From assembly GCA_016191465.1 (NCBI GenBank), contig JACPOP010000001.1, forward strand, positions 62,001-126,000: a stretch of DNA of 64,000 bases. Direction: 5' to 3'. The translations under genes and the position numbers were made by a program. Of the stretch, positions 15,062 through 59,441 are shown piece after piece (position 1 is the first letter of the stretch; the number at the start of each line of letters is the position of its first letter). A model generated the notes under the pieces. The model saw nothing but the letters and a program-made list of their open reading frames with translations, made no database searches and was not told the DNA's origin. This stretch comes from Chloroflexota bacterium (GTDB taxonomy: Bacteria; Chloroflexota; UBA6077; CF-72).

Positions 15062-15526
15062 GTCGGGCAGTCCTCCCTTAACTCAAAGCCGTGGGACGGG
15101 TCAGGCGGGCGGCCAGGCTCACGGGGCCGCGCTTCTGGAAGACGGGAGCCCCGGAATCGTTATAGCCGTGTCCCCGACGCACCGCCAAAATGCGCGCGCG
15201 GCACCGGGAGTCGTTTCCCGTCCTGCTCGCGCCATGCCAACAGGAGACCGCATGACCCGTACCCAGCCAGAGGGCCGGACGCGTCCGGAGGAATGCGAGC
15301 TGTCTCGTCCGGTGCACCGCGGCGCTCGCCCTCACTCCGTTCTTCCACGGCGTAGCCGCTGCCGCGGAACGAGACGTCTCGCCGACGGGCGACCTCCTGG
15401 CGCGTCCCGTAACACTGGGAGAACGAACGCCGAGCGTGGCAGCGCGCCGAAAGCCGCGTGATTTGGTTGGAATGCTGGACAGAACGGGCTAGAAAGCGGA
15501 AGGTAGAGAGAGGAAGGGGCGCCGCC
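15062..15526. promoter_or_regulatory. Divergent intergenic region of 465 bp
   Basis: Separates the binding-protein gene (leftward) from the lytic transglycosylase gene (rightward), so it must hold promoters for both. TATAAC on the minus strand about 100 bp before the binding-protein ATG is a possible -10. GAGAGGAAGG just before 15527 is the ribosome site of the rightward gene. Open frames inside show no recognisable protein. Confidence 0.35.
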
Positions 15527-17902
15527 GTGACCCGCAATCTACACCGCTCGCTCAGCGTTCCCGCATTCGCTGCGCTGCTGCTCGCCACGGGCGTCGCGTG
15601 TCAACCAGCCACGCCGCCCGCTTCCGCGCCCGCCGCGCCCGCGCCGACCTCGGCGGCGCCCGCGGCCGCGCAGCAGACGCAGAGCGCCCCCGCCGCGCCG
15701 GCCGCTCAGCCGGTCCAGACCTCAGCACCCGCGGCACCCGCCGCCGCGCCCACACGCATCGCCCCGGCAGCGCCCACCTCGACGCCCTCGCCTCTGCTGG
15801 CGTTGACCCCTCCCCAGCGAGCCGCCGCCGCCGAAGGCCAGCGCGCTCTGGCCGCCGGCGATTACACCCGGGCGGTGGACGTGCTTCGTCCCCTGGCCGG
15901 CCAGGTGGTCGCCGGCGCCGCGCGCACCGAGGTCCAACTGCTCCTCGCCCAGGCGCAGGTTGGCGCTCGGGCCTACGACGACGCGCTCACGACCGCGCAG
16001 GCGCTCGGCTCGGCCGATCCCGCGGCAAGGCTCGTCAAGGGCCAGGCACTGCGCGGCCTGAAGCGCTGGGACGAGGCAGCCGTGGAGATGCGCGCCGCGG
16101 CCGATGCCGAGCCGCGAGTCGACGCGGCAGTGCGCTTGCAACTGGCCGAGATGTGGCTCGGCGCTGGCAAGCCCGACCAGGCCGCGGCTGATGCGCGGAA
16201 AGGCGTTGATGGCACAGAAACTCGGCTGTTGAAGATCGACCTGGCCGAGAGGCTCGCAAGCACAGAAGTCGCGCAGCGGAACACCGATGCGGCGATGGAA
16301 GCCTACCGCCAGCTCCTCACCGCTGCCGGCAGCAAGGGCTTTCTCGGCGAGCAGCTCTACAACCTCGGACTCGGCGCAAATCAGCTCGGCAAGAAGGACG
16401 AGGCGATCCGCGCCCTCCGCACGTCGATCTCGGACTTCCCCCGCTCGCGCAAGGCGCCGGACGCCGTCAACCTGCTGGAGAGCATTGGCGGCATGCGTCC
16501 GGAGGACCGCTTCTATTCGGGCGTGATCCGCTACTACTTCTGGGAGTTCAAGAAGGCCCGCGCCGATTTCGATGCCTACCTGGCCGCCTTCCCCGACGGC
16601 GACCGCGCCGTCGAGGCGCGCTACTATCGCGGCCTTTCGTCGCTCCCCGCGGACACGACCGAACAGCTCCTGAAACTCGCAGACCAATTTCCGGACGACG
16701 AGTTTGCACCGCTGGCCTTGCTCGAGGCGGGCAAGGCCCAGGAGGAGCTGGAGAAATACGACTCCGCCGAGGCGATCTACGCGCGCCTCATTGCCACGTT
16801 TCCCACCCGCGACGCGGGGCTCGCGGGTACCTTTCGGCGAGGCCTCTCCCGGCTGATGCAGAAGGACACCGCTGGCGCCCTGGCCATCTGGGACGGATTG
16901 GCGCAGAAGGACGTGGAACCAGCGCTCAAGGCGCAGTCGCTGTACTGGGCGGGCAAGGCGCTCGCCACGAGAGGCGACACCGCGGGCGCTCGGGCTCGCT
17001 GGCAGGCAGCGTCCAACGTGCGGCCCGTGGATTACTACGTGGTGCGGGCCCTGGCGGAGCTGAACCCCCCGCCGCCGACCGCGGACTTCAACCCGGCCTC
17101 GGCAGCGCCGGCGGACGAGGCGGCCCTGGGCGCGTGGTTTGCCGAACGGAAGATTGACCTGGCCTCCGCCAGCCGCGAGGCAGCCGCCCAGCCAGCGTAC
17201 GATCGCGCGGCGACCCTCGTGCGGTACGGCCTGTACCGCGAAGCGAACTGGGAGTACGAGGGGTTCCTCACCCAGTACGTGGATAAGCCGGCTCAGCTGT
17301 ACTGGCTCGCCGCCCGCTTCGGCGACCTCGGGCTGCCAAATGCCCAGCTCAAGCTCGGCACAGCCGCGCTCGCGGCGGCCACCGCCGAGGGCCAGGTCAG
17401 CGTCCTGGACGTGCCGAAGGCGCTCCAGCGGGTGGCGTTTCCCCTTGCATTCCCAGACATGGTGACCGGTGTGGCGAAGCAGAATGGGCTTGACCCGTTG
17501 CTCTTCGAGGGCCTGATCCGCCAGGAGAGCGATTTCGACCCGTACGCGGAGTCTGTGGTGAAGGCCAAAGGACTCTCCCAGATCATGCCCGACACCACAG
17601 GACCCGAGATCGCGGGCAAGCTGGGGGTGAAGGACTACTCTCCCGAATCGCTCTTCGAGGCGAAGCGGAACGTGCAGTTCGGCGCCTTCTATTTCGCGGA
17701 ACGGCTCAAGCGGAACGGCCGCGTTCCCCAGAAGGCGCTGGCCGCCTACAACGCCGGCGATGGCAACGTGGACAACTGGACCGGCGCCGGCCGCGAGGAC
17801 CCGGACGTTTTCGCGGAGTACATCGCCTTCTTCGAAACCCATGATTACGTCCAGCGCATCTACACCTACTGGACCCTGAACCGCTACATCTGGGGCGGCT
17901 AA
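15527..17902 (+). CDS. slt: Soluble lytic murein transglycosylase (Slt-like) lipoprotein
   Basis: A 791-residue exported enzyme that cleaves peptidoglycan with formation of 1,6-anhydromuramic acid. A signal peptide with lipobox (LLLATGVAC) precedes a long Ala/Pro/Thr linker. The middle (about 100-640) is a helical superhelix of TPR-like repeats. The C-terminal SLT domain has the catalytic Glu in IRQESDFDP, then GLSQIMPDT and AYNAGDGN. The protein ends TYWTLNRYIWGG. GTG 15527 was chosen because GAGAGGAAGG precedes it and the signal peptide follows. The last 38 coding bases are repeated exactly at 22263-22300, marking this gene as the probable integration site of the downstream island. Confidence 0.9.
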   Translation: MTRNLHRSLSVPAFAALLLATGVACQPATPPASAPAAPAPTSAAPAAAQQTQSAPAAPAAQPVQTSAPAAPAAAPTRIAPAAPTSTPSPLLALTPPQRAAAAEGQRALAAGDYTRAVDVLRPLAGQVVAGAARTEVQLLLAQAQVGARAYDDALTTAQALGSADPAARLVKGQALRGLKRWDEAAVEMRAAADAEPRVDAAVRLQLAEMWLGAGKPDQAAADARKGVDGTETRLLKIDLAERLASTEVAQRNTDAAMEAYRQLLTAAGSKGFLGEQLYNLGLGANQLGKKDEAIRALRTSISDFPRSRKAPDAVNLLESIGGMRPEDRFYSGVIRYYFWEFKKARADFDAYLAAFPDGDRAVEARYYRGLSSLPADTTEQLLKLADQFPDDEFAPLALLEAGKAQEELEKYDSAEAIYARLIATFPTRDAGLAGTFRRGLSRLMQKDTAGALAIWDGLAQKDVEPALKAQSLYWAGKALATRGDTAGARARWQAASNVRPVDYYVVRALAELNPPPPTADFNPASAAPADEAALGAWFAERKIDLASASREAAAQPAYDRAATLVRYGLYREANWEYEGFLTQYVDKPAQLYWLAARFGDLGLPNAQLKLGTAALAAATAEGQVSVLDVPKALQRVAFPLAFPDMVTGVAKQNGLDPLLFEGLIRQESDFDPYAESVVKAKGLSQIMPDTTGPEIAGKLGVKDYSPESLFEAKRNVQFGAFYFAERLKRNGRVPQKALAAYNAGDGNVDNWTGAGREDPDVFAEYIAFFETHDYVQRIYTYWTLNRYIWGG
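17863..17900 (+). repeat. Left copy of a 38-bp direct repeat (slt 3-prime end)
   Basis: The final 38 bases before the slt stop are identical to 22263-22300, exactly 4400 bp further on. Here the stop is TAA; in the right copy the reading frame would end in TGA. The repeats bracket a restriction-modification and toxin-antitoxin block. I read them as attachment-site-like ends. Confidence 0.85.
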
Positions 17903-17984
17903 CGCCCGCCCAGGGGGCTGAGCTCCAGCACAGTCACCAGGGACTCTGGGAGCTGCGTGCTTCCGAAGTTCAGCGGCCCCAAGA

Positions 17985-18253
17985 TCACCGCCGGTCAGCA
18001 GAGACGCGCGTATGGGTGGAGCGGCGGCTCCCGTACAGGCGAGTGCGCCGAGCTTCCGCCTCGAGCCCCCCGACCTCCGCCTCCCGGAACCGCTGGGCAA
18101 ACGCCGCGTCCAGCTCCTGCCAGAGGTACACCGAGTTCCCGCACACCCGGCCTCGCGAGCCGCCCCCGTGACGTTGCCCAGCTTGGCAAACGCCGCCGGG
18201 AAGCGCGCCTTCAACGCATCCGTCTTCCCTTCGCTCCGTGCCACCGTCCACAA
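17985..18253 (-). pseudogene. Frameshifted remnant of a helix-turn-helix (terminase-small-subunit-like) gene
   Basis: Two overlapping minus-strand frames together spell a typical helix-turn-helix protein. One reads RFPAAFAKLGNVTGAAREAG; the next frame continues CGNSVYLWQELDAAFAQRF and then REAEVGGLEAEARR. This pattern (GNVTxAARxAG followed by VYxWxExDxxFxxxF and LEAEARR) is common in phage terminase small subunits and related DNA-binding proteins. Neither frame has the whole domain, so at least one indel is required. It sits just inside the left repeat, next to the methyltransferase gene. Confidence 0.5.
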
Positions 18254-18345
18254 TGCCCGGCGGCGCGCGTTAGTGCCTAACGAGCTTTCCGAACGCCTCT
18301 GCTCCGACGGCGCTTCACCTCGCCGGCGAGCGCTGGGCCAGGCGC

Positions 18346-19479
18346 TCAGGCAGTGCTCAGCAGCGGGAGCTGGAACAGCCCGTCATCGGGTGCCCCGAGC
18401 TCCTCCCCATTCATCTGCGCTCGGATGGCCGACGCCACCGCCTGAGCGAGCGGCGGTGGCACCGAGTTCCCCACCTGGAGCTGGATGCTCCGTCGTGAGC
18501 CAGCAAGCTCATAGGCGTCTGGAAACCCTTGCAGCCGACGTAGCTCCGGGACACGCAGGCGACGGTTCTCCCAGTGGAACGGCCCTACATACGGCCCCGG
18601 TTGTCCCTGAATCGTGCTCGCCGGCCGCTCCGGGTCCAGCTTCAGCAGGAACGTCCAATAGCGCGTCCGCCACTCGAAGAGCGGTTGGGGATGCCCTTCG
18701 TGGGCCGTGTAGTGCAGGTAGTTCTTCCCCGGCGGGATCTCGGGCAGGAGGTGGCCGTACTTCCCATTTACGCCCTCATCCGGTTCGGGAACGGTCTCGA
18801 GCCCGTCCAGCACCTGTCCCGCGGTCACGTGCGCCAGCAGTCGTTCCGCCCCGCTTGGCCGCACTCTGCGTTCAAGATCACCCCAATGCGTCGACTCGGG
18901 CAGGCGGAGCTTATGTCCGTCGCTTCGACCGATCACGAAGAGGCGCTGGCGATTCTGTGGCACCCCGAAATCGGCCGCATTCAAAACCCCATGCTGCACC
19001 GAGTATCCAAGCTGGCGCATACCCCTCAGCAGCCGGTTGAACGGCAACTCTGATTGGTTTCTATAGGCCAGCCCAAAGACGTTCTCCATCAAGAATGCCT
19101 TCGGTCGGATGCTGGCCAGGAACCGAAGGTAGTCGTCGAGCAAGCCAGCCTTCGGGTCTTTGCCTTCTCGCTTGTACTCGAGGTGAAACCCCGACTTCGA
19201 GAACGCCACGCACGGTGGCCCCCCCACCAGGAGATCCACCGCCCCTGGCTCGAGCCCAAGGTCCGAGAGCACCTCATTCGGGTCGAGCGTCGTGATGTCT
19301 GCCGGCGCCACCTCGCCGAGGTCCGGGAAGAAGCGTGCCCGGTTCTGGTTCAGCGTCTCCACAGCCATGGGGTCGTGCTCGATGGCCCGGACCACGCGAA
19401 ACCCCGCCGCTTCCACGCCCAGGTCCAGGCCGCCGGCACCCGAGAATAGGCTGATCGCCAGGGGCTGGCTCAGGCTCAT
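18346..19479 (-). CDS. DNA (cytosine-5) methyltransferase of a type II R-M system
   Basis: A 377-residue m5C methyltransferase. Motif I FSGAGGLDLG (12-21) binds AdoMet. Motif IV GGPPCVAFS has the catalytic Cys at about 90. Motif VI is MENV (Glu about 132), motif VIII QNRQR (about 175-179), and motif X GNSVPPPLA (about 343). It should protect the host from the SacI-like endonuclease two genes upstream, so GAGCTC is the predicted target by analogy. It is the last gene of the R-Vsr-M operon, 10 bp after the Vsr stop, with start ATG at 19479. Confidence 0.92.
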   Translation of the reverse strand: MSLSQPLAISLFSGAGGLDLGVEAAGFRVVRAIEHDPMAVETLNQNRARFFPDLGEVAPADITTLDPNEVLSDLGLEPGAVDLLVGGPPCVAFSKSGFHLEYKREGKDPKAGLLDDYLRFLASIRPKAFLMENVFGLAYRNQSELPFNRLLRGMRQLGYSVQHGVLNAADFGVPQNRQRLFVIGRSDGHKLRLPESTHWGDLERRVRPSGAERLLAHVTAGQVLDGLETVPEPDEGVNGKYGHLLPEIPPGKNYLHYTAHEGHPQPLFEWRTRYWTFLLKLDPERPASTIQGQPGPYVGPFHWENRRLRVPELRRLQGFPDAYELAGSRRSIQLQVGNSVPPPLAQAVASAIRAQMNGEELGAPDDGLFQLPLLSTA

Positions 19480-19489
19480 AGCTCACACA

Positions 19490-19963
19490 TTACGACAGAA
19501 CAGGTGTTCCATCAACCCCGTCCTGCTCGACCGGCGTTGCCTGTGATGCCCGCGTAAGCCCCGCGACGAGCGTGGCGGCCTCATCCGGGGGCACGTGCTC
19601 CCAGACCCGAACCACCGTCCAGCCCGCGGCCTCGAGCACGGCGTTCACCCGCCCATCCCGCGCCACGTTCCGCGCCAGCTTCGGGCCCCAGTACTCCGTG
19701 TTCACCCGAGGCTGCACGCCGTGCTCCGGGCAGGCGTGCCAGTAGCACCCGTCCACGAACACCGCGAGCTTGCGGCGGGTGAATACCAGGTCCGGCCGGA
19801 CGCGGAGGTCACCCAGCACCAGGGTCAGGCTCGTCCGATAGCGCAGACCCAGCCCGTGCACACGTGATCGAACCGCCCGCTCTGGGCGCGTCTCGTGCTT
19901 CCGATTGCGCCGCATGGCCGCGCTGACCGCCGGGCTGGAAGGCAGCGGATATGGCGCTTTCAC
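19490..19963 (-). CDS. vsr: Very short patch repair endonuclease (Vsr family)
   Basis: A 157-residue nuclease that nicks 5-prime to the T of T:G mismatches formed by deamination of 5-methylcytosine, so it limits mutation at sites modified by its partner methyltransferase. Visible features are RPDLVF with the catalytic Asp (about 58), then FVDGCYWHACPEH (about 69-81) with the zinc/active-site residues, and NTEYWGPKLARNVARD. The start is GTG at 19963, overlapping the restriction gene stop by 3 nt (GTGA), so the two are translationally coupled. The C-terminal 30 residues beyond the fold are unconserved in appearance. Confidence 0.9.
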   Translation of the reverse strand: MKAPYPLPSSPAVSAAMRRNRKHETRPERAVRSRVHGLGLRYRTSLTLVLGDLRVRPDLVFTRRKLAVFVDGCYWHACPEHGVQPRVNTEYWGPKLARNVARDGRVNAVLEAAGWTVVRVWEHVPPDEAATLVAGLTRASQATPVEQDGVDGTPVLS

Positions 19964-21057
19964 TCCGACACGCCAGTCTCCAGGCTCTCAAGGTCCTGGG
20001 CGAACAAGGCACCCCAGGCCTCGACGCTCGACGGCCGCACCTCCAGCTCCGCCAGTCGCCCCGCGACCAGTTGAGGGAATGCCTCGAGACATTCTTCGAG
20101 GGGGCGACCAGACCAGGTGAATGCGGCCCGCAGCAAGCTGCCGGTCCCCACCATCACGGCCAGGTGAACGCCGTGACGATCCCAGCTCTCGGCTTTGAGT
20201 ACGGTGAGATCCATTTCGGTCCGGCTCAGCGCCAGCAGCACCACGATGGCTCGCCGCACGTCGCTGGACGCGAGCTTCTCCACGAATTGCAGAATCTCTG
20301 TCTCGGTGGTCTCCCGCTGCTTCACCTCGACGGAGGTGATGGGCCGCTCGCCAGTGGACACGATCACGTCGCCCGGAATGTGGCGGCTTGGATCGTTCAC
20401 CCGGCCGGTCTGAACCTCCGCAAACACCAGGTCGAACGCGGCGGCCGTGAGCGCTTGGCCACGCTTACCCCCCTCGGGATCGGCATGGAGAAAGCGTTCC
20501 GCCACCGAGATCAGCTCAGCCATCGGGAGCCCGCCCGAGACAGCCATCGGGACGCCGTGCCCAGGCCCATCCTGCAGGCGTGCTCGAAGAAACGCCGCGA
20601 GCGCGCCTTCCGCTTCCACCCGTGAGAGCGCATCGACAGCATCCAGACAATCCACCAGGTAGGCCAGGTGGGGACGAACGTGGGGATGCACCGCCATAGC
20701 ATTCGACACGCTGTCGTAGCGGAAGAATGGCTGATTATTGAGCGGCTCTCGGCCGGTGGTCCCCAGGTGCACCCGGTGCCGGACTGCCCTGGTCACCAGC
20801 ACGGCCATGCACAGGCTCCGTGCCGAATAGGCACGCTCGCTGAAGCGCACCTTCAGCGCATGAGAATCGATTCGGGCGTCGGTCGCCTTGGCCAGCAACG
20901 CCGTGCCGAGCATCGCGACGAAGGTCTTGTTGGGTGCCGTGGCGACGGCACGCGCGCGGTCAAGCCATTCCTCAGCTACGGGGAGCTCCGAAACCGCGGT
21001 GGCGAGGGCCGAGTCAAACGCCACCCCAGCCTGCGCAAAATCCAGCTTGATCGCCAC
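19960..21057 (-). CDS. Type II restriction endonuclease, SacI family
   Basis: A 365-residue protein that resembles SacI-type endonucleases (GAGCTC) as I remember the family: an N-terminal NKTFVAMLGTALLAKATDA block, YSARSLCMAVLV, and GREPLNNQPFFRYD (about 103-116). A PD-(D/E)xK-like core is visible as PGDVIVS...ITSVEVKQRE near residue 240, giving the likely metal ligands Asp and Glu-Val-Lys. Start GTG at 21057. It is the first gene of the R-Vsr-M operon, which is an unusual order for safe establishment in a new host. GAGCTC sites occur in this window, so the sequence is not strongly depleted. Confidence 0.8.
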   Translation of the reverse strand: MAIKLDFAQAGVAFDSALATAVSELPVAEEWLDRARAVATAPNKTFVAMLGTALLAKATDARIDSHALKVRFSERAYSARSLCMAVLVTRAVRHRVHLGTTGREPLNNQPFFRYDSVSNAMAVHPHVRPHLAYLVDCLDAVDALSRVEAEGALAAFLRARLQDGPGHGVPMAVSGGLPMAELISVAERFLHADPEGGKRGQALTAAAFDLVFAEVQTGRVNDPSRHIPGDVIVSTGERPITSVEVKQRETTETEILQFVEKLASSDVRRAIVVLLALSRTEMDLTVLKAESWDRHGVHLAVMVGTGSLLRAAFTWSGRPLEECLEAFPQLVAGRLAELEVRPSSVEAWGALFAQDLESLETGVSE

Positions 21058-21503
21058 TCAGCCCAACGGTACCAAGCGAAAGGGCGCGCGTGTGAGGAAG
21101 ACCGCCGGCGGAAGCACGTCTCGTGCAGTCTATCGCGCGGACGCCCTCTCTTGGTTCCGGATCCCTCGGCTACGGGCCCGTGAAAAGGACCCACGGCCTG
21201 CGCGTGGGCGCTGTATCGGGACGATTGCCCTGACGCCCGAAGGATCTACCCTTCCCGGCGAGACGAGCAAAGGGACCTTCCGCGAGCAGCTCGCCGGGCT
21301 TGGCTGGCGCGGTGACGAACGACAATCGGGAAGGCTCTGGCACGAATTTCGATACTGCTGGCGAATTCCCGTCTCCGCCCCGCCGCGAGATTGATGACGG
21401 CCGCTGCGATCACGCGACCGGATCCAACACCAAGGCCGAACCGGCATGTCGGCAACATTCGCCAGCAGTATCATTCCGTGCCAGAGGCATAGAGAGAGTT
21501 GTG
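21058..21503. other. Control region between the R-M operon and the toxin-antitoxin pair
   Basis: About 450 bp between the restriction gene start (leftward) and the vapB operator (rightward). It must contain the promoter of the R-M operon, but I cannot point to one. The open frames on either strand look random, and I see no controller (C) protein gene. Confidence 0.35.
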
Positions 21504-21519
21504 TCACGCGTGATACACT
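21504..21519 (+). promoter_or_regulatory. Operator-like palindrome and -10 of the vapBC pair
   Basis: TCACGCGTGA (21504-21513) is a perfect 10-bp palindrome directly followed by TACACT (21514-21519), a -10-like hexamer 7 nt before the GTG start. A palindrome touching the -10 is the usual arrangement for autorepression of a toxin-antitoxin operon. Confidence 0.45.
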
Positions 21520-21526
21520 GCCATTC

Positions 21527-21769
21527 GTGACTGAGGCCGAGGTCAGTGTCCGCGATCTCCGCCATCACGGCGGTGAGGTGCTTGACCAGGTGGCTCGGGG
21601 CCGGCCCGTCACCGTTACACGCGACGGTAAGCCGGTCGCCATCCTGCAGCCGTACGTCCACGCCTGCGTCTCGGCCGAAACGCTCCTGGCGCGATGGCGC
21701 CACCTCCCGCACATGGACCCGCGGGCCTGGCGGCGTGACGTCGGCGATCTCCTCGACAGCCGCCTCTGA
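21527..21769 (+). CDS. Antitoxin of the Phd/YefM (prevent-host-death) type
   Basis: An 80-residue antitoxin starting at GTG 21527. The N-terminal two thirds match the Phd/YefM pattern: EVSVRDLRHHGGEVLDQVARGRP, then VTVTRDGKPVAILQP. The C-terminal tail (HMDPRAWRRDVGDLLDSRL) should wrap around the toxin. Together with the downstream PIN-domain toxin it forms a VapBC-type module inside the 38-bp-repeat-bounded island. It is probably autoregulatory through the palindrome at 21504. Confidence 0.82.
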   Translation: MTEAEVSVRDLRHHGGEVLDQVARGRPVTVTRDGKPVAILQPYVHACVSAETLLARWRHLPHMDPRAWRRDVGDLLDSRL

Positions 21770-21793
21770 TCGGCTCGGATTGGATCGAGACGG

Positions 21794-22219
21794 ATGCCGT
21801 CTGCGCGCCGGGCCCGCGGCCTGCTCGACACCTCCACGGTGATCCTGTTACCACGGCTCGCCGATCCGCGACGGCTTCCACCGGAGCCCCTGATCAGTGC
21901 CGTGACGCTGGCAGAACTCTCCGTCGGGCCGCTCGTCGCTCGCACAGCGGACGAGCGCGCCGCGCGCCAGGCGCACGTGCAGCAAGCGGAGAGTGATTTC
22001 GACCCGCTCCCTTTCGACGCGGCCGCTGCCCGGGCTTTCGGCCAGGTTGCCGCGTCCCTGCGCCGGCACGGGCGAAAGGTCCAGGCACGTGCCTACGACG
22101 CCATGATTGCCGCGACCGCCCTGGCGAATGGACTGCCGGTCTACACGTGCAATCCAGAGGACTTCGCCGGCATCGACGGCCTGACCGTAGTGGCTGTTCC
22201 TCACCCGGACGCCTCCTGA
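21794..22219 (+). CDS. vapC: PIN-domain toxin (VapC family ribonuclease)
   Basis: A 141-residue PIN-domain RNase. The acidic metal-binding residues are present: Asp12 (LLDTSTVI), Glu41 (LAELSVG), Asp102 (AYDAMIAATA) and Asp123 (NPEDF). VapC toxins cut tRNA or rRNA when the labile antitoxin is lost. The gene begins 24 nt after the antitoxin stop. Its end lies only about 45 bp before the right 38-bp repeat, so the pair is the outermost gene set on that side of the island and may stabilise it. Confidence 0.88.
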   Translation: MPSARRARGLLDTSTVILLPRLADPRRLPPEPLISAVTLAELSVGPLVARTADERAARQAHVQQAESDFDPLPFDAAAARAFGQVAASLRRHGRKVQARAYDAMIAATALANGLPVYTCNPEDFAGIDGLTVVAVPHPDAS

Positions 22220-22262
22220 AGGGCGCCTGGAGAGGCTCCTACGCCGGGAGCGACGCCCCCTC

Positions 22263-22300
22263 CACCTACTGGACCCTGAACCGCTACATCTGGGGCGGCT
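22263..22300 (+). repeat. Right copy of the 38-bp direct repeat
   Basis: Identical to 17863-17900. In the plus orientation it would encode the end of the lytic transglycosylase, TYWTLNRYIWGG, then TGA. No transglycosylase sequence precedes it here; similarity ends abruptly a few bases upstream. Its last 17 bases are also the 3-prime end of the minus-strand NlpC/P60 gene. Confidence 0.85.
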
Positions 22301-22745
22301 GATACTCCTCGCCGACGGGCTGCTGGTGCGCACGGCGCTCGGGTCCAGGGCGTCGAATCTCGCACGGGTATTGGAGGATTGGGTGTTCGCCCACGCCGCC
22401 GTGGCTGAAGCTGGCATCGAGCATTGAGCTGCTGTCGAGCCATAGGCCAACGTGGGGGTACACCACGCCCGGCTGAGTGGGGTCCTCGTAGCGGTACAGG
22501 ATCAGATCACCAGGCTGAGCGAGTAATGGATCGATGGTCTCTGTCTCGTTGGCGATGTCGTCGGTGAACGGGGTGAGGGCGACGCCGACCTGCGCATAGG
22601 CGGCCGAGACCAGCGAGGAGCAATCCCAGCCGTCGCCGAACCGGCCGATCGTCGTTCCGCTCAGCGGCCCCCCGTACGGCTTGCCAATCTGCTGGTGGGC
22701 AAACCCCAGGACCGCCGCGCGGTCCGCGTCACTGAGCGTCCGCAC
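22284..22745 (-). CDS. NlpC/P60 family cell-wall hydrolase
   Basis: A 153-residue single-domain NlpC/P60 protein, a papain-like peptidase that usually cuts D-Glu-DAP bonds in peptidoglycan stems. The catalytic Cys is in GDGWDCSSL (Cys42), and the His is in VYPHVGLWLD (about 98). There is no clear signal peptide; an upstream in-frame TAG leaves GTG 22745 as the start. The last residues (QPPQM) are encoded by the antisense of the 38-bp repeat, so the C-terminus may have been altered when the island inserted. Before insertion this gene would have been convergent with the slt gene. Confidence 0.8.
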   Translation of the reverse strand: MRTLSDADRAAVLGFAHQQIGKPYGGPLSGTTIGRFGDGWDCSSLVSAAYAQVGVALTPFTDDIANETETIDPLLAQPGDLILYRYEDPTQPGVVYPHVGLWLDSSSMLDASFSHGGVGEHPILQYPCEIRRPGPERRAHQQPVGEEYQPPQM

Positions 22746-48592: not shown

Positions 48593-50608
48593 TCAGTGGA
48601 AGTCGTGGCTGCCGGGAACGGGGAGGCGGACACGGTTGGCGCTCGTGGAGGTAGGTTGCTCCCGCGGGTCCGGGGCGCCGCCGGGGTAGGGATGGCGAAG
48701 CGGCGGTCGGGGCAGGCGCTTCGCGGCTTCCGCGGTGCGGTCAAAAGCTTCCTTCCAGCGGGGGTCGTCGGCGTTGTCCGGGTGGACGACCTCCTGCCTG
48801 GGCTGCGGCAGCAGGCGCGTGGGAACAGCCTCCATGGCGGCGACCCGCCGCGCCAGCAGGTTGAGCGAGCCAGAGCGGACCTGGAGCGTGCCTTCTATCC
48901 ACAGGTACGGCTCGCCTCGGACAACGCCGCGCCGGGCCTCGTACAGGTCTGGGCCGATCACCACGTTGGTCAGGCCGGTCTCGTCCTCGAGGAGCAGGAA
49001 CACAAATCCCTTCGCGGTACCCGGGCGCTGGCGGCAGACGACCAGGCCGGCAGTGCGGACCAGGGATCCATCACGCGCCTTTCGCAGTTGGTCGTTGGTC
49101 AGAACGTCCGGGCTGAGGCTCTCGCGGAGCAGCCCCATGGGGTGATAGGTGGGCGAGAGGCCGAGCAGGCCGTAATCGGCCACCATGCGCTCCCAGTCGT
49201 CCATGTCGGGGAGGCGGACCATGTCCTGCTCGACCCCGAGGTCTAACGGCAGCGAGCGGGCCGTCGCTTTGTTTGGACGGCGGGGTTTTGGGGTCCCACT
49301 CCCTGGCTGGGAAGCCGGCCCACCCCCCGGCCCCCTCCCGCGGGAGGGGGAGAAGGGTTTCTTTGGGTCAAAGGTGGGGCTCCGCCCCACCACCCCGCCG
49401 AGGGCGCTGCCCTCAGACTCCCGGGAGCGCGAGCCCGAATCGGCCCCCCAGCTCAGGCCCACCACCCCGCCGAGGGCGCTGCCCTCGGACTCCCGGGAGC
49501 GCGAGCCCGAATCGGCCCCCCAGCTCAGGCCCACCACCCCGCTGAGGGCGCTGCCTTCAGACTCCCCGGGACGTGGGGCGGCCAACCGTGGAGCCAGCCC
49601 GCCGAGGGCAGCGCCCTCGGACACCCCGGGGCGTGGGGGGGCGGAGCGTGGAGCTACCTTGCTGAGGGCTGCGCCATCAGACTCCCCGCGCCAGGTGGAG
49701 CCCCCACCGGGGGCGCTGCCCTCAGACTCCCGGGGCGGCGCCGCGAGGGTCGAGGCTTGGTTGGGCGGGGCGGGATCCCCTGGGGTGGCGGAGCGGTGAC
49801 GCGGGTGCGTTGCCTCGGCCGGGGCGCGGCTGGAGCTGCGGACCATGGCGCCGTAGGTGGTACCTTCTGGAAGGAGCAAGCCGAGCTGCCACAGGAGCTC
49901 GCGGCGGCCGAGGCCAAACTCGCTGAGCGCGCCCACGGCGATCAGCCGCTCGGCGGCCTGGCGGGGAAGCCCTGTCCTTCTCAGCAGGTCAGCCAGCGAG
50001 CAGTAGGGGCCGCCGCGCTCGCGCTCCCCCACGATGGCGCGGGCAAGATCGAGGGAAATGCCCTTCACCGTAGTAAGTCCCAGCAACAGTTGGCCCGCGG
50101 AGCCGGGGGCTGGGTTTTTCTGCCCCACCCCCCGGTCCCCTCCCGCGGGAGGGGGGGAGGGAAGAAAGAGGTTGGGGCTCCGCCCCAACGCCTCCGCTGC
50201 GGGCTCTGCCCTCAGACTCCCATGAGCGTGCTTTCGAGAGAACTGCGCCCCGGACTCCGCGTCGGTCGGAGCCTCCGCTGCGGGCTCTGCCCTCAGACCC
50301 TCCGATGACAGCGCGCGTCCGCGCTGGATCACCGGGCGGCTCGCGGACTCCCAGCTTCCACGCCCAGACGACGCGGCCCAGCGGGGGTTTGGGGGCGGAG
50401 CTCCCACTGGGGGTGTTGGGGCAACGCCCCAACGTCCTCTTTCTTCTCCCCCTCCCGCGAACGGGAGGGGGCTGGGGGGTGGGCCGACCTCTGCCCACCA
50501 GGACGTGCGGGGCGTAGAAGCCCATGGGCTGGTTGTTGAGCAGGGCAGCGTAGAACTCCGCGGTGTAGTAGTGGCGCAGCCAGGCCGACTGGTAGGCCAG
50601 GACGGCAA
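48593..50608 (-). CDS. dnaE2: Error-prone DNA polymerase III alpha (DnaE2), C-terminal part in a separate frame
   Basis: This frame carries the last part of DnaE2. Real polymerase sequence begins at about 50090 with LLLGLTTVKGISLDLARAIV and CSLADLLRRTGLPRQAAERL. It then goes through a low-complexity insert (about 49830-49319) and resumes with MVADYGLLGLSPTYHPMGLL, and the OB-fold segment (RTAGLVVCRQRPGTAKGFVF, LEDETGLTNVVIGPDLYEA). It ends in a Pro-rich tail. Upstream of 50090 the frame is only repeat sequence, so no genuine start exists. It is one frame away from the N-terminal part (49989-53672). The expected linker after MGFYAPHVLV is missing at the junction, so the polymerase is split unless frameshifting restores it. 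Confidence 0.75.
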   Translation of the reverse strand: MPSWPTSRPGCATTTPRSSTLPCSTTSPWASTPRTSWWAEVGPPPSPLPFAGGGEERGRWGVAPTPPVGAPPPNPRWAASSGRGSWESASRPVIQRGRALSSEGLRAEPAAEAPTDAESGAQFSRKHAHGSLRAEPAAEALGRSPNLFLPSPPPAGGDRGVGQKNPAPGSAGQLLLGLTTVKGISLDLARAIVGERERGGPYCSLADLLRRTGLPRQAAERLIAVGALSEFGLGRRELLWQLGLLLPEGTTYGAMVRSSSRAPAEATHPRHRSATPGDPAPPNQASTLAAPPRESEGSAPGGGSTWRGESDGAALSKVAPRSAPPRPGVSEGAALGGLAPRLAAPRPGESEGSALSGVVGLSWGADSGSRSRESEGSALGGVVGLSWGADSGSRSRESEGSALGGVVGRSPTFDPKKPFSPSRGRGPGGGPASQPGSGTPKPRRPNKATARSLPLDLGVEQDMVRLPDMDDWERMVADYGLLGLSPTYHPMGLLRESLSPDVLTNDQLRKARDGSLVRTAGLVVCRQRPGTAKGFVFLLLEDETGLTNVVIGPDLYEARRGVVRGEPYLWIEGTLQVRSGSLNLLARRVAAMEAVPTRLLPQPRQEVVHPDNADDPRWKEAFDRTAEAAKRLPRPPLRHPYPGGAPDPREQPTSTSANRVRLPVPGSHDFH
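49319..49830. repeat. Insertion 4 in dnaE2: palindromic element plus tandem repeats
   Basis: Starts with CCCCCTCCCGCGGGAGGGGG, then TTTCTTTGGGTCAAA and the hairpin GTGGGGCTCCGCCCCAC (to 49390). It continues as many variants of the block CGAGGGCGCTGCCCTCAGAC. A 72-bp unit starting at 49389 is repeated at 49461 and partly at 49533. The encoded linker (VVGLSWGADSGSRSRESEG repeats) replaces what is normally a short variable loop between the HhH region and the OB fold. The reading frame is kept. Confidence 0.75.
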
Positions 50609-53600
50609 AGGCGTAGGCGTGGCTCTTAGGAAAGCCGAACTCTGAGAAGCCGCACAGCTTGAGGAAGATCGCTTCCGCCTCGGCGCGCGTGACAGGCCTC
50701 ACGGGGGTGGTTTCCTTGCTCCCGGAGGCATCGCTCCGAGCGGGAGCACCCTCGTAAGCGGGCCCATGGTCGGGCCTGGGGTCCCCAGGGGCGGGACGTG
50801 CTGTGCTGGTCGGAGCAGCGCTCGGCCCTTCGTGCTTCGTGCCGTCAGCTCCGCGAACCCCTGCCTGAGGTGTGCTCACGTGCTTGTTAGCGGTCTGACC
50901 ACCCCTGGGAGCAGTGGCGCCTCGAATGAAGTCTTCCTTGAAACGCTCCATCGCTTCGCGGGAGCGGCGGCGGCTCATGGAGCGGCGGAACTGGTCCGCC
51001 TGGCCCGGGGTGAACTGGCCCATCTCGATCGCCACTTCCAGCACCTGGTCCTGGTACAGCACGACGCCCAGCGTGTCCGCCAGGAGCTTGTCCAGCATGG
51101 GGTGGTCTGCCCTGGGCACGTACGTCTTCCCCTGGGCGGCCAGGGCGCGCTGGAGCTCGCGGCGGCGGACGTACGGGTTGACGGCGCCGCCGACGATGGG
51201 ACCAGGACGGACGATGGCAACCTGCACGGCCAGGTCGTCCAGGTTTCTCGGCTGCGAGCGGGTAAGCATCTGGATCTGAGCGCGGCTCTCGATCTGGAAT
51301 AGACCCACCGTATCGCCCGCGCAGATCTGGTCGTAAACCGCCGGGTCGTCGTAGGAAATCTCCTCCAGCCGCACCTTCTCGCCACGGGCCTGCCAGGCTA
51401 GCTCAAGGCACTCCTCCACCAGCGAGAGCATTCCCAGGGCAAGGAAATCGATCTTGATGAAGCGAGCGTCATCACACGAATCCTTGTCCCACTGACAGAT
51501 GAAGCGGCCTTCCATAGAGGCGGGCTGAACAGGCACCATCTCGATCAATGGGCGCGAGGAGATAATCATCCCGCCCACGTGCTGGCCCACGTGGCGGGGG
51601 AAGCCGTCGATCTGACGGGCGAGGTCGATCAGGTGCTGCCAGAGGGGACCGTCGGCCTGGCCCTGGAAGCTGTCGATGCGGCCCAGCTCGCGGGCAACAG
51701 TGTCGGCGCCGTGGCCTTCCGAGAGGCGAGCGAGCTTGTCGATGGCCGCTGGTGGCAGGCCGAGCACCTTGCCAAGATCGCGCACGGCACTGCGCAGGTG
51801 GTACGTGGCGAAGTTACACACCAGGGCGGCGTGCTCGTGGCCGTAGCGCTCATACACCCGCAGGATCAGCTCTTCGCGGATGTCACGGGCGAAGTCGATG
51901 TCGATATCGGGAACGGATTGGAGGTCTTCGTTCAGGAAGCGGCGAAAGAAGAGGCGGTTCTTCACCGGGTCCACGTGGGACAGGCCGATGAGGTAGCAGA
52001 TGATGGAGCTGACGGAGGAGCCGCGTCCGCGCCCGGGCGGTAGGCCCGAGCCGCCACGGACCGTGCCCGCGCCGCGCACGTCGCGGGCAACCGTGGTGGC
52101 CATTTCCTGGAGGTCGCGGTAGATGAGGAAGAAGCCGGAGAGGTGGAGCCTGGCGACGAGCGCGAGCTCCACTTCCAACTGGGCGGCGGCTTTGGCGCGC
52201 AGCGCTGGCTCGCTGCCTTCGGGGTAACGCTCGGCGAATTTGGCGCGGCAGAAATCGGCCAGCACGTCGTCGGCGCTGGCGTGGCGCTCGCCCTCGGCGC
52301 GCGTGAAATCGGGGAAGTCGTAGCCAAGGTCGCGGCGGTCGGCCAGGTTGAAATCGCGGCAGCGCTCGGCGAGGGCGCCAACGTTCTTCAGCGCCTCCGG
52401 GTACTTCTGGAAGAGGGCGGCCACCTCGGCGCGCGGACGGAGATAGAACTCGCTGTTGGGGCGGCGCTGGCGGTGCGAGCCTTCCAGCGTGGAGCGGCTC
52501 TGGATGGCCACCAGCGCGTCTTGCAGCCGGTGGCGGTGGCGCTCATGGTAGTGGACGTTGCCGGTGGCCACGAGCGGCATGCCAAGCCGCTCGCCCAGCT
52601 CCGCCAGCAGCGACAGACGGCGCGTGTCGCCGCGGACAAGGTTGTGCTGCAGCTCCAGGTAAGCGTTAGAGCGGCCGAAGAGCGCCGCCAAGCGGCGCGC
52701 GGCCTCCTCCGCATCGTCCAGGCGACCGGTATCCAGCAGCCGGGCCACTTCGCCAGAGCGGCAGCCGCTGAGGGCAATGACGCCCTCCACGTGGCCCACG
52801 ATGAACGCGGGATCCAGCGCTGGCGAGCTTTTCTGCCCCACCCCCCGGCCCTCTCCCGCGGGAGAGGGAGAAGACAGGTTCTTTGGATCAAAGTTGGGGC
52901 TTCGCCCCAACACCCCATCGGGGGCTGCGCCCCCAAACCCCTGCCACGCATCCGCATCCTGGGGAGTCTGAGAGGGCTCCAACCGGGTCGGGGTCCGCAA
53001 CACCCCTTCCGCAGGCGCGGGCTCACGGGAATCTGAGGGGGCACCCCTCGGCGGGGGCGTTGGGGCGGAGCCCGAGACCAGGCGCATCCTCGGTCCATCT
53101 CCCGGGGTGTCCGAGGGCGCCTCCCTCGGCGGGGTGGCCATTGCGCCGCGCGGGCCAGCGTCTGCCGCCTCACCTCGCCGGGAGCCCGAGGACGCCTCCC
53201 TCGGCGGGGTGGTGGGGCGGAGCCCCACCTTTGATCCAAAGAATCTCTCCTCCCCCTCCCGCGGGAGGGGGCCGGGGGGTGGGCCGTCCTCCCCACCGGG
53301 GACTGGGACCCAGAGGCCGCGGTTCCAGGCTCGGGTGTCGCGGTGCGCCTCGGTGAGCAATCGGCACAGGTTGGCGTAGCCGCGGTCGCTCTCGGCCAGC
53401 AGCGTCAGGTGGACCGGACCGCTCGCCGCGTCGGCCAGGCCGTGGGCGAGGGTGATCTCCACCCCTGTGATGGGCCGGATGCCCACGGCGGCGCAGGCCA
53501 GGGCAAACGCCATCGCGCCGTGCAGGCCGTCATGGTCGGTGTTGGCCAGCGCGCGGTAGCCCAGCGCCGCCGCCTGGGCCGCCAGCTCGTCCGGCTGCGA

Positions 53601-59206: not shown

Positions 59207-59441
59207 GCACCAAAACGGCGCGCCCCATCCATGGGCCGAAGGAAGGTCGACCTTCCTTCGGCCCAATTTCCGCTCCGCCTAACGCGAAGCTGAAAGCCCT
59301 TCCATTCGCTACACCAGGTCCGCTGGCCAACCTCTCGGTCGTCGTACCCCTGCGAAGGATGACCTGCTGATAGCGGTTTACAAAGTTGCCATAGTCCTGG
59401 CGCTGCTGCGTGCCACCGAGCAGGGAGTCGAGTAGTCCCAT
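59207..59441 (-). pseudogene. Decayed gene of a small MGLLDSLLGG-type protein
   Basis: From ATG 59441 the frame begins MGLLDSLLGGTQQRQDYGNF, VNRYQQ. This start is typical of a small conserved protein seen in several Chloroflexota and other soil bacteria, whose next residues are of the type GHPxxGYDDREV. Those residues do occur here (HPSQGYDDREV) but one frame away, so a single base is missing after CAGCAG. Beyond that neither frame is family-like. The 3-prime end overlaps the palindrome at 59233. Confidence 0.5.
59233..59264. terminator. Perfect 32-bp palindrome after csbD
   Basis: Two 16-bp arms, GGGCCGAAGGAAGGTC and its exact complement GACCTTCCTTCGGCCC, meet without a loop. On the plus strand it is followed by AATTTCC. 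It lies 34 bp after the CsbD stop and probably ends that transcript, in both directions if transcribed so. Confidence 0.55.

Follow-up and report, generated by a model that had tools for sequence, protein, structure and literature searches.

A 4.4-kb block of restriction-modification (R-M) and toxin-antitoxin (TA) genes in an uncultured Chloroflexota genome lies between two identical copies of the 3' end of slt, a lytic transglycosylase gene, and is best regarded (at a probability of about 0.5) as a CIME-like island, or what remains of one, that went into the slt 3' end by site-specific integration and whose integrase was lost or never present. The term CIME (cis-mobilizable element) denotes an element whose integration and transfer genes have been lost and in which attL and attR have been retained (PMC5704250). 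The genome (34 contigs, 2.15 Mb, 78% complete, 4.8% contamination) holds the block on contig C8, inside the 64,000-nucleotide stretch of DNA that was analysed as a whole and is called the window here (features in Table 1). Integration at the end of slt had been proposed in the initial annotation, and the proposal draws support from the repeat, its boundary at a coding end, a second copy specific to this genome, a break in gene order and cargo of a mobile kind; the insertion itself, its direction, the site-specific recombination, mobilisation in trans and the activity of the genes are what we infer from these observations.

Table 1. Features of the slt-nlpC region, in window coordinates
Feature	Position	Strand	Basis
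slt, TPR + SLT-domain lytic transglycosylase, target gene	15458..17902	+	PF01464 E=1.4e-19
Left 38-bp direct repeat (attL-like)	17863..17900	+	repeat search
Frameshifted HTH gene, possible terminase-small-subunit-like remnant	17985..18253	-	PHROG 4044
C5-cytosine methyltransferase (M)	18346..19479	-	PF00145 E=2.4e-57
Vsr-type mismatch endonuclease	19490..19963	-	PF03852 E=8.6e-17
SacI-family restriction endonuclease (R)	19960..21057	-	RE_SacI PF09566 E=3.6e-26
Phd/YefM-type antitoxin (VapB-like)	21530..21769	+	PF02604 E=1e-7
PIN-domain toxin (VapC-like)	21794..22219	+	PF01850 E=2e-10
Right 38-bp direct repeat (attR-like)	22263..22300	+	repeat search
nlpC, NlpC/P60 gene, 3' end within right repeat	22284..22745	-	NLPC_P60 PF00877 E=2e-11

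The two 38-bp copies are identical, share one orientation at a spacing of 4400 bp and, when extended by 3 bp to the left, still match at 40/41 bp. Given the base composition of the window, exact pairs of at least this length are expected by chance about 3e-12 times, and a search of the whole 2.15-Mb genome with up to 3 mismatches found the sequence in these two places only. The earlier claim of an exact repeat of the slt 3' end was borne out. Outside a short-period GC-rich cluster at 49-53 kb, the window contains no other long exact direct repeat. The coding end of slt is the left copy, which leads into TAA, whereas the right copy leads into TGA, and since every stop codon begins with T the identity is effectively 37 bp plus that T, the informative 37 bp stopping precisely at the final sense codon of slt. 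As had likewise been stated of it, the right copy has no slt sequence beyond the 38 bp beside it, is followed by TGA, and contains the last codons of nlpC, a gene convergent to the slt tail. A near-match of 19 bp that slt shares with vapC (17524 and 21988) was set aside as chance, its spacing being off by 64 bp and the peptide ESDFDP being present in both.

The target gene encodes a complete protein of 814 aa, with TPR repeats and an SLT domain, and its orthologues in two relatives, G001 and G003, are 61-68% identical and have the ends YWWVNRYIW../YWWINRYLW... When the C-terminal part of slt was searched against a collection of genome contigs, there was one close match, to the same contig as G001:C319. 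The class was represented by 29 genomes; besides the window genome, three belonged to its family, G001 and G003 among them, and its genus had no further representative. From about 11.2 to 17.9 kb, up to and through slt, the window and G003 share their gene order; in G001, whose contig begins inside this stretch, it matched over the later part, again through slt. Beyond slt all three genomes differ, G001 having the end of a Mutator-family transposase and G003 a weakly DinB-like gene and others. Because gene order agrees up to slt and differs after it, the 3' side of slt is a breakpoint, and because G001 and G003 each have a single slt tail motif, as against two in the window genome, the second copy is specific to the latter. 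No relative was found to carry the island, and G001 and G003 have no R-M system at slt. No uninterrupted slt-nlpC junction was seen, the G001 and G003 sequences ending 0.6 and 1.8 kb past slt without an nlpC neighbour.

If the favoured reading is correct, site-specific recombination at the end of slt would have brought the island into the chromosome together with its own copy of the slt tail, and the crossover would have left a full-length slt (TAA) on one side and displaced the original tail and its stop (TGA) to the far side of the island. A boundary at the last slt codon is to be expected of such an event, because slt has to be restored by the DNA that comes in. The integrase would have been lost or never present, as in CIMEs, with mobilisation in trans, and the R-M system and TA pair, lethal to any cell from which the island is lost, would hold it in the chromosome and also act against phage. 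Site-specific integration is preferred to its rivals since it explains the exact repeat, the coding-end boundary and the intact gene on one side together.

The genes between the repeats correspond closely to the initial annotation, which had described a SacI-like R-Vsr-M operon, a VapBC pair, a broken HTH gene and no recombinase. R, Vsr and M form one minus-strand operon and were identified by their respective Pfam families, with R scoring 93 bits against PF09566 (cut-off 19) and M 195 bits against PF00145, such that a RE_SacI domain and a C5 methylase are both present; R was also recovered by PADLOC as REase_II (E=3.2e-68), and its match to EcoT38I was weak. The catalytic motifs PPC, ENV, QNRQR and GNSVPPP of M and the motif VDGCYWHACPEH of Vsr could be seen directly in the sequence. 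The TA pair was confirmed as VapBC-type by its two domains (the mechanical open reading frame of the antitoxin starts at 21446). All five island ORFs (R, Vsr, M, antitoxin, toxin) are uninterrupted and the R-M system is, as read from its genes, apparently intact. The sequence GAGCTC occurs 36 times in the window where 59 are expected, ranking 22 of 64 palindromes, and is not strongly avoided. The HTH gene, which adjoins the left copy, is indeed broken, by a frameshift, and what was refined is its identity: with the two frames joined by hand, and only then, it matched PHROG 4044, a terminase small subunit family (E=8.7e-8). The frames taken separately gave no match, nor did Pfam, and its reading as a frameshifted terminase-small-subunit-like remnant is suggestive only; a remnant of that kind beside the left repeat would speak for an integrated island.

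A clear homologue of R (48% identity) was found in just one other of the 400 Chloroflexota genomes searched, G092, and relatives of R were absent from the plasmid, phage and viral contig collections. In G092 (contig C6, L059:8958-11620) the R, Vsr and C5 methylase genes also stand in one operon and in the same order, at identities of just 47, 54 and 70%, respectively. The contig that carries it has in addition a relaxase, a type IV (T4SS) coupling protein and transposases, and is probably a conjugative element, although the operon there is not accompanied by a VapBC pair; because of those relaxase, coupling protein and transposase genes, the R-Vsr-M operon can be taken as mobile cargo elsewhere.

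The CIME-like reading also fits because the block has no integrase: profile searches of the ORFs between the repeats recognised no integrase, transposase, relaxase or other recombinase, the main ORFs matching only R-M, Vsr, TA and the terminase-like remnant. Several observations count against site-specific integration, namely that no relative shows an empty site, that no attP-like copy is found in the genome (up to 3 mismatches), that viral contigs gave no exact match to the 38-bp repeat and none to its degenerate form, that no convincing core-type inverted repeat or dyad is seen within the 38 bp, and that the three tyrosine recombinases above cut-off in the genome are all on other contigs, one of them beside a tRNA-Gln gene, with no link to the slt site found for any of them. 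The base composition of the island, much like that of its surroundings, counts against an integrated island as well, with R and M slightly below slt in third-position GC, and so does the reliance of the terminase match on frames joined by hand. Phage records yielded only short chance matches to the repeat, and no tandem partner or related integrase-bearing element was found at the slt site. Searches with the repeat sequence across the genome, the viral contigs and the phage records turned up no ICE or IME that uses it as an att site.

In an alternative that we consider rather unlikely, the right copy arose near nlpC as a small templated duplication or a gene-conversion scar, and the R-M/TA block, resident for longer, happens to lie in between. 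It gains from the lack of an empty site among the relatives examined, and from nlpC itself, which runs about 20 residues beyond the last portion that aligns well with homologues and has its last codons in the repeat, so that it may no longer have its original end. Yet it leaves unexplained why the copied piece should end at the slt coding end, and does not account for the exact fit of a rare R-M/TA block, phage-like remnant included, into the gap between the copies. An assembly effect, in which a free circular element and the chromosome, each with one 38-bp copy, were joined by the assembler, is very improbable. A genome in 34 contigs, with the completeness and contamination given above, would lend itself to such an error, but 38 bp is short for an assembler join, since assemblers usually work with longer words, and a join of this kind would itself imply a circular element that shares the slt tail.

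There is precedent for R-M systems entering without a recombinase, some reportedly being inserted with long and variable target duplications on the order of 100 bp (PMC3874152, PMC3031569). By analogy, illegitimate recombination could have placed the R-M segment, with its TA pair, into a staggered break in the end of slt, with fill-in duplicating the 38 bp and no site-specific recombinase taking part, a route that is the main rival and that we hold to be unlikely. The likeness is real in that here too an R-M block lies between direct repeats of its target with no recombinase and with no terminal inverted repeats reported next to the 38-bp copies by the repeat search; folding at the island ends likewise gave no significant terminal inverted repeats or hairpins. 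Also in favour of this route, a GAGCTC at 17920 is 20 bp from the left repeat, a closeness that about 3% of positions would have by chance, and it is a SacI-type site that may not be the one used by this R-M system. Against this route, the exact agreement between the end of the duplication and the end of the slt coding sequence would be left to coincidence, and 38 bp is short beside the size of the published duplications, given as the order of 100 bp for Nobusato et al. 2000 and Furuta et al. 2010 as relayed in PMC3874152. In that account the published duplications were inferred by comparing related genomes, whereas the island is known from one genome. An end-joining route is also less favoured because no Ku homologue was found in the assembly (78% complete).

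Site-specific integration at the slt 3' end would place the island among well-described company. R-M and TA addiction systems are common on ICEs, various IMEs carry TA or type II R-M systems in complete form, and on such elements these modules can kill the cells that lose them (PMC5704250). Within the same phylum, Dehalococcoides has islands at ssrA bounded by repeats of the gene 3' end, and in 15 of these the integration module is missing (PMC3146451). Like CIMEs and those ssrA islands, the block has direct repeats at a gene 3' end, here attL/attR-like copies that, to judge by sequence, coincide with the coding end of slt, and no integration or transfer genes were recognised among its main ORFs; unlike the Dehalococcoides islands, its target is the protein-coding slt and not ssrA. 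The island is a further case of a known pattern, with no new mechanism, and its new points are possibly the small integrase-less form and slt as the target gene. If confirmed, it would add slt to the genes that serve as landing sites, and would be a small defence block spreading in uncultured Chloroflexota without an integrase of its own. That the block is a minimal mobile R-M/TA unit with the slt 3' end as its dedicated attachment site, moved in trans by the recombinase of another element, and that slt is a new hotspot in this lineage, is a more far-reaching version that we regard as quite doubtful.

Other features of the genome were recorded alongside the island. The nlpC product is short (153 aa), and hardly any open frame precedes it that could hold a signal peptide. 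The family lacks a close orthologue, the relatives having distant homologues only, and nlpC may itself be truncated or acquired. On contig C9 (G000:C9 near 61.4-62.5 kb; L052:1019-2076) a 304-aa tyrosine recombinase directly adjoins a tRNA-Gln gene and likely marks an integrated element, the far end of which was not found. A large serine recombinase gene lies near the end of contig C12 (L069:983-2248) among other genes that look unlike the rest of the genome, and was set aside as evidence, as the contig appears foreign and is a possible contaminant in the bin. In the window itself, GC-rich repeats, both direct and inverted (CCCCCTCCCGCGGGAGGGGG and relatives) and with 37-bp inverted pairs among them, are clustered at 49300-53300, and a perfect 34-bp palindrome, TGGGCCGAAGGAAGGTCGACCTTCCTTCGGCCCA, is at 59232-59265.
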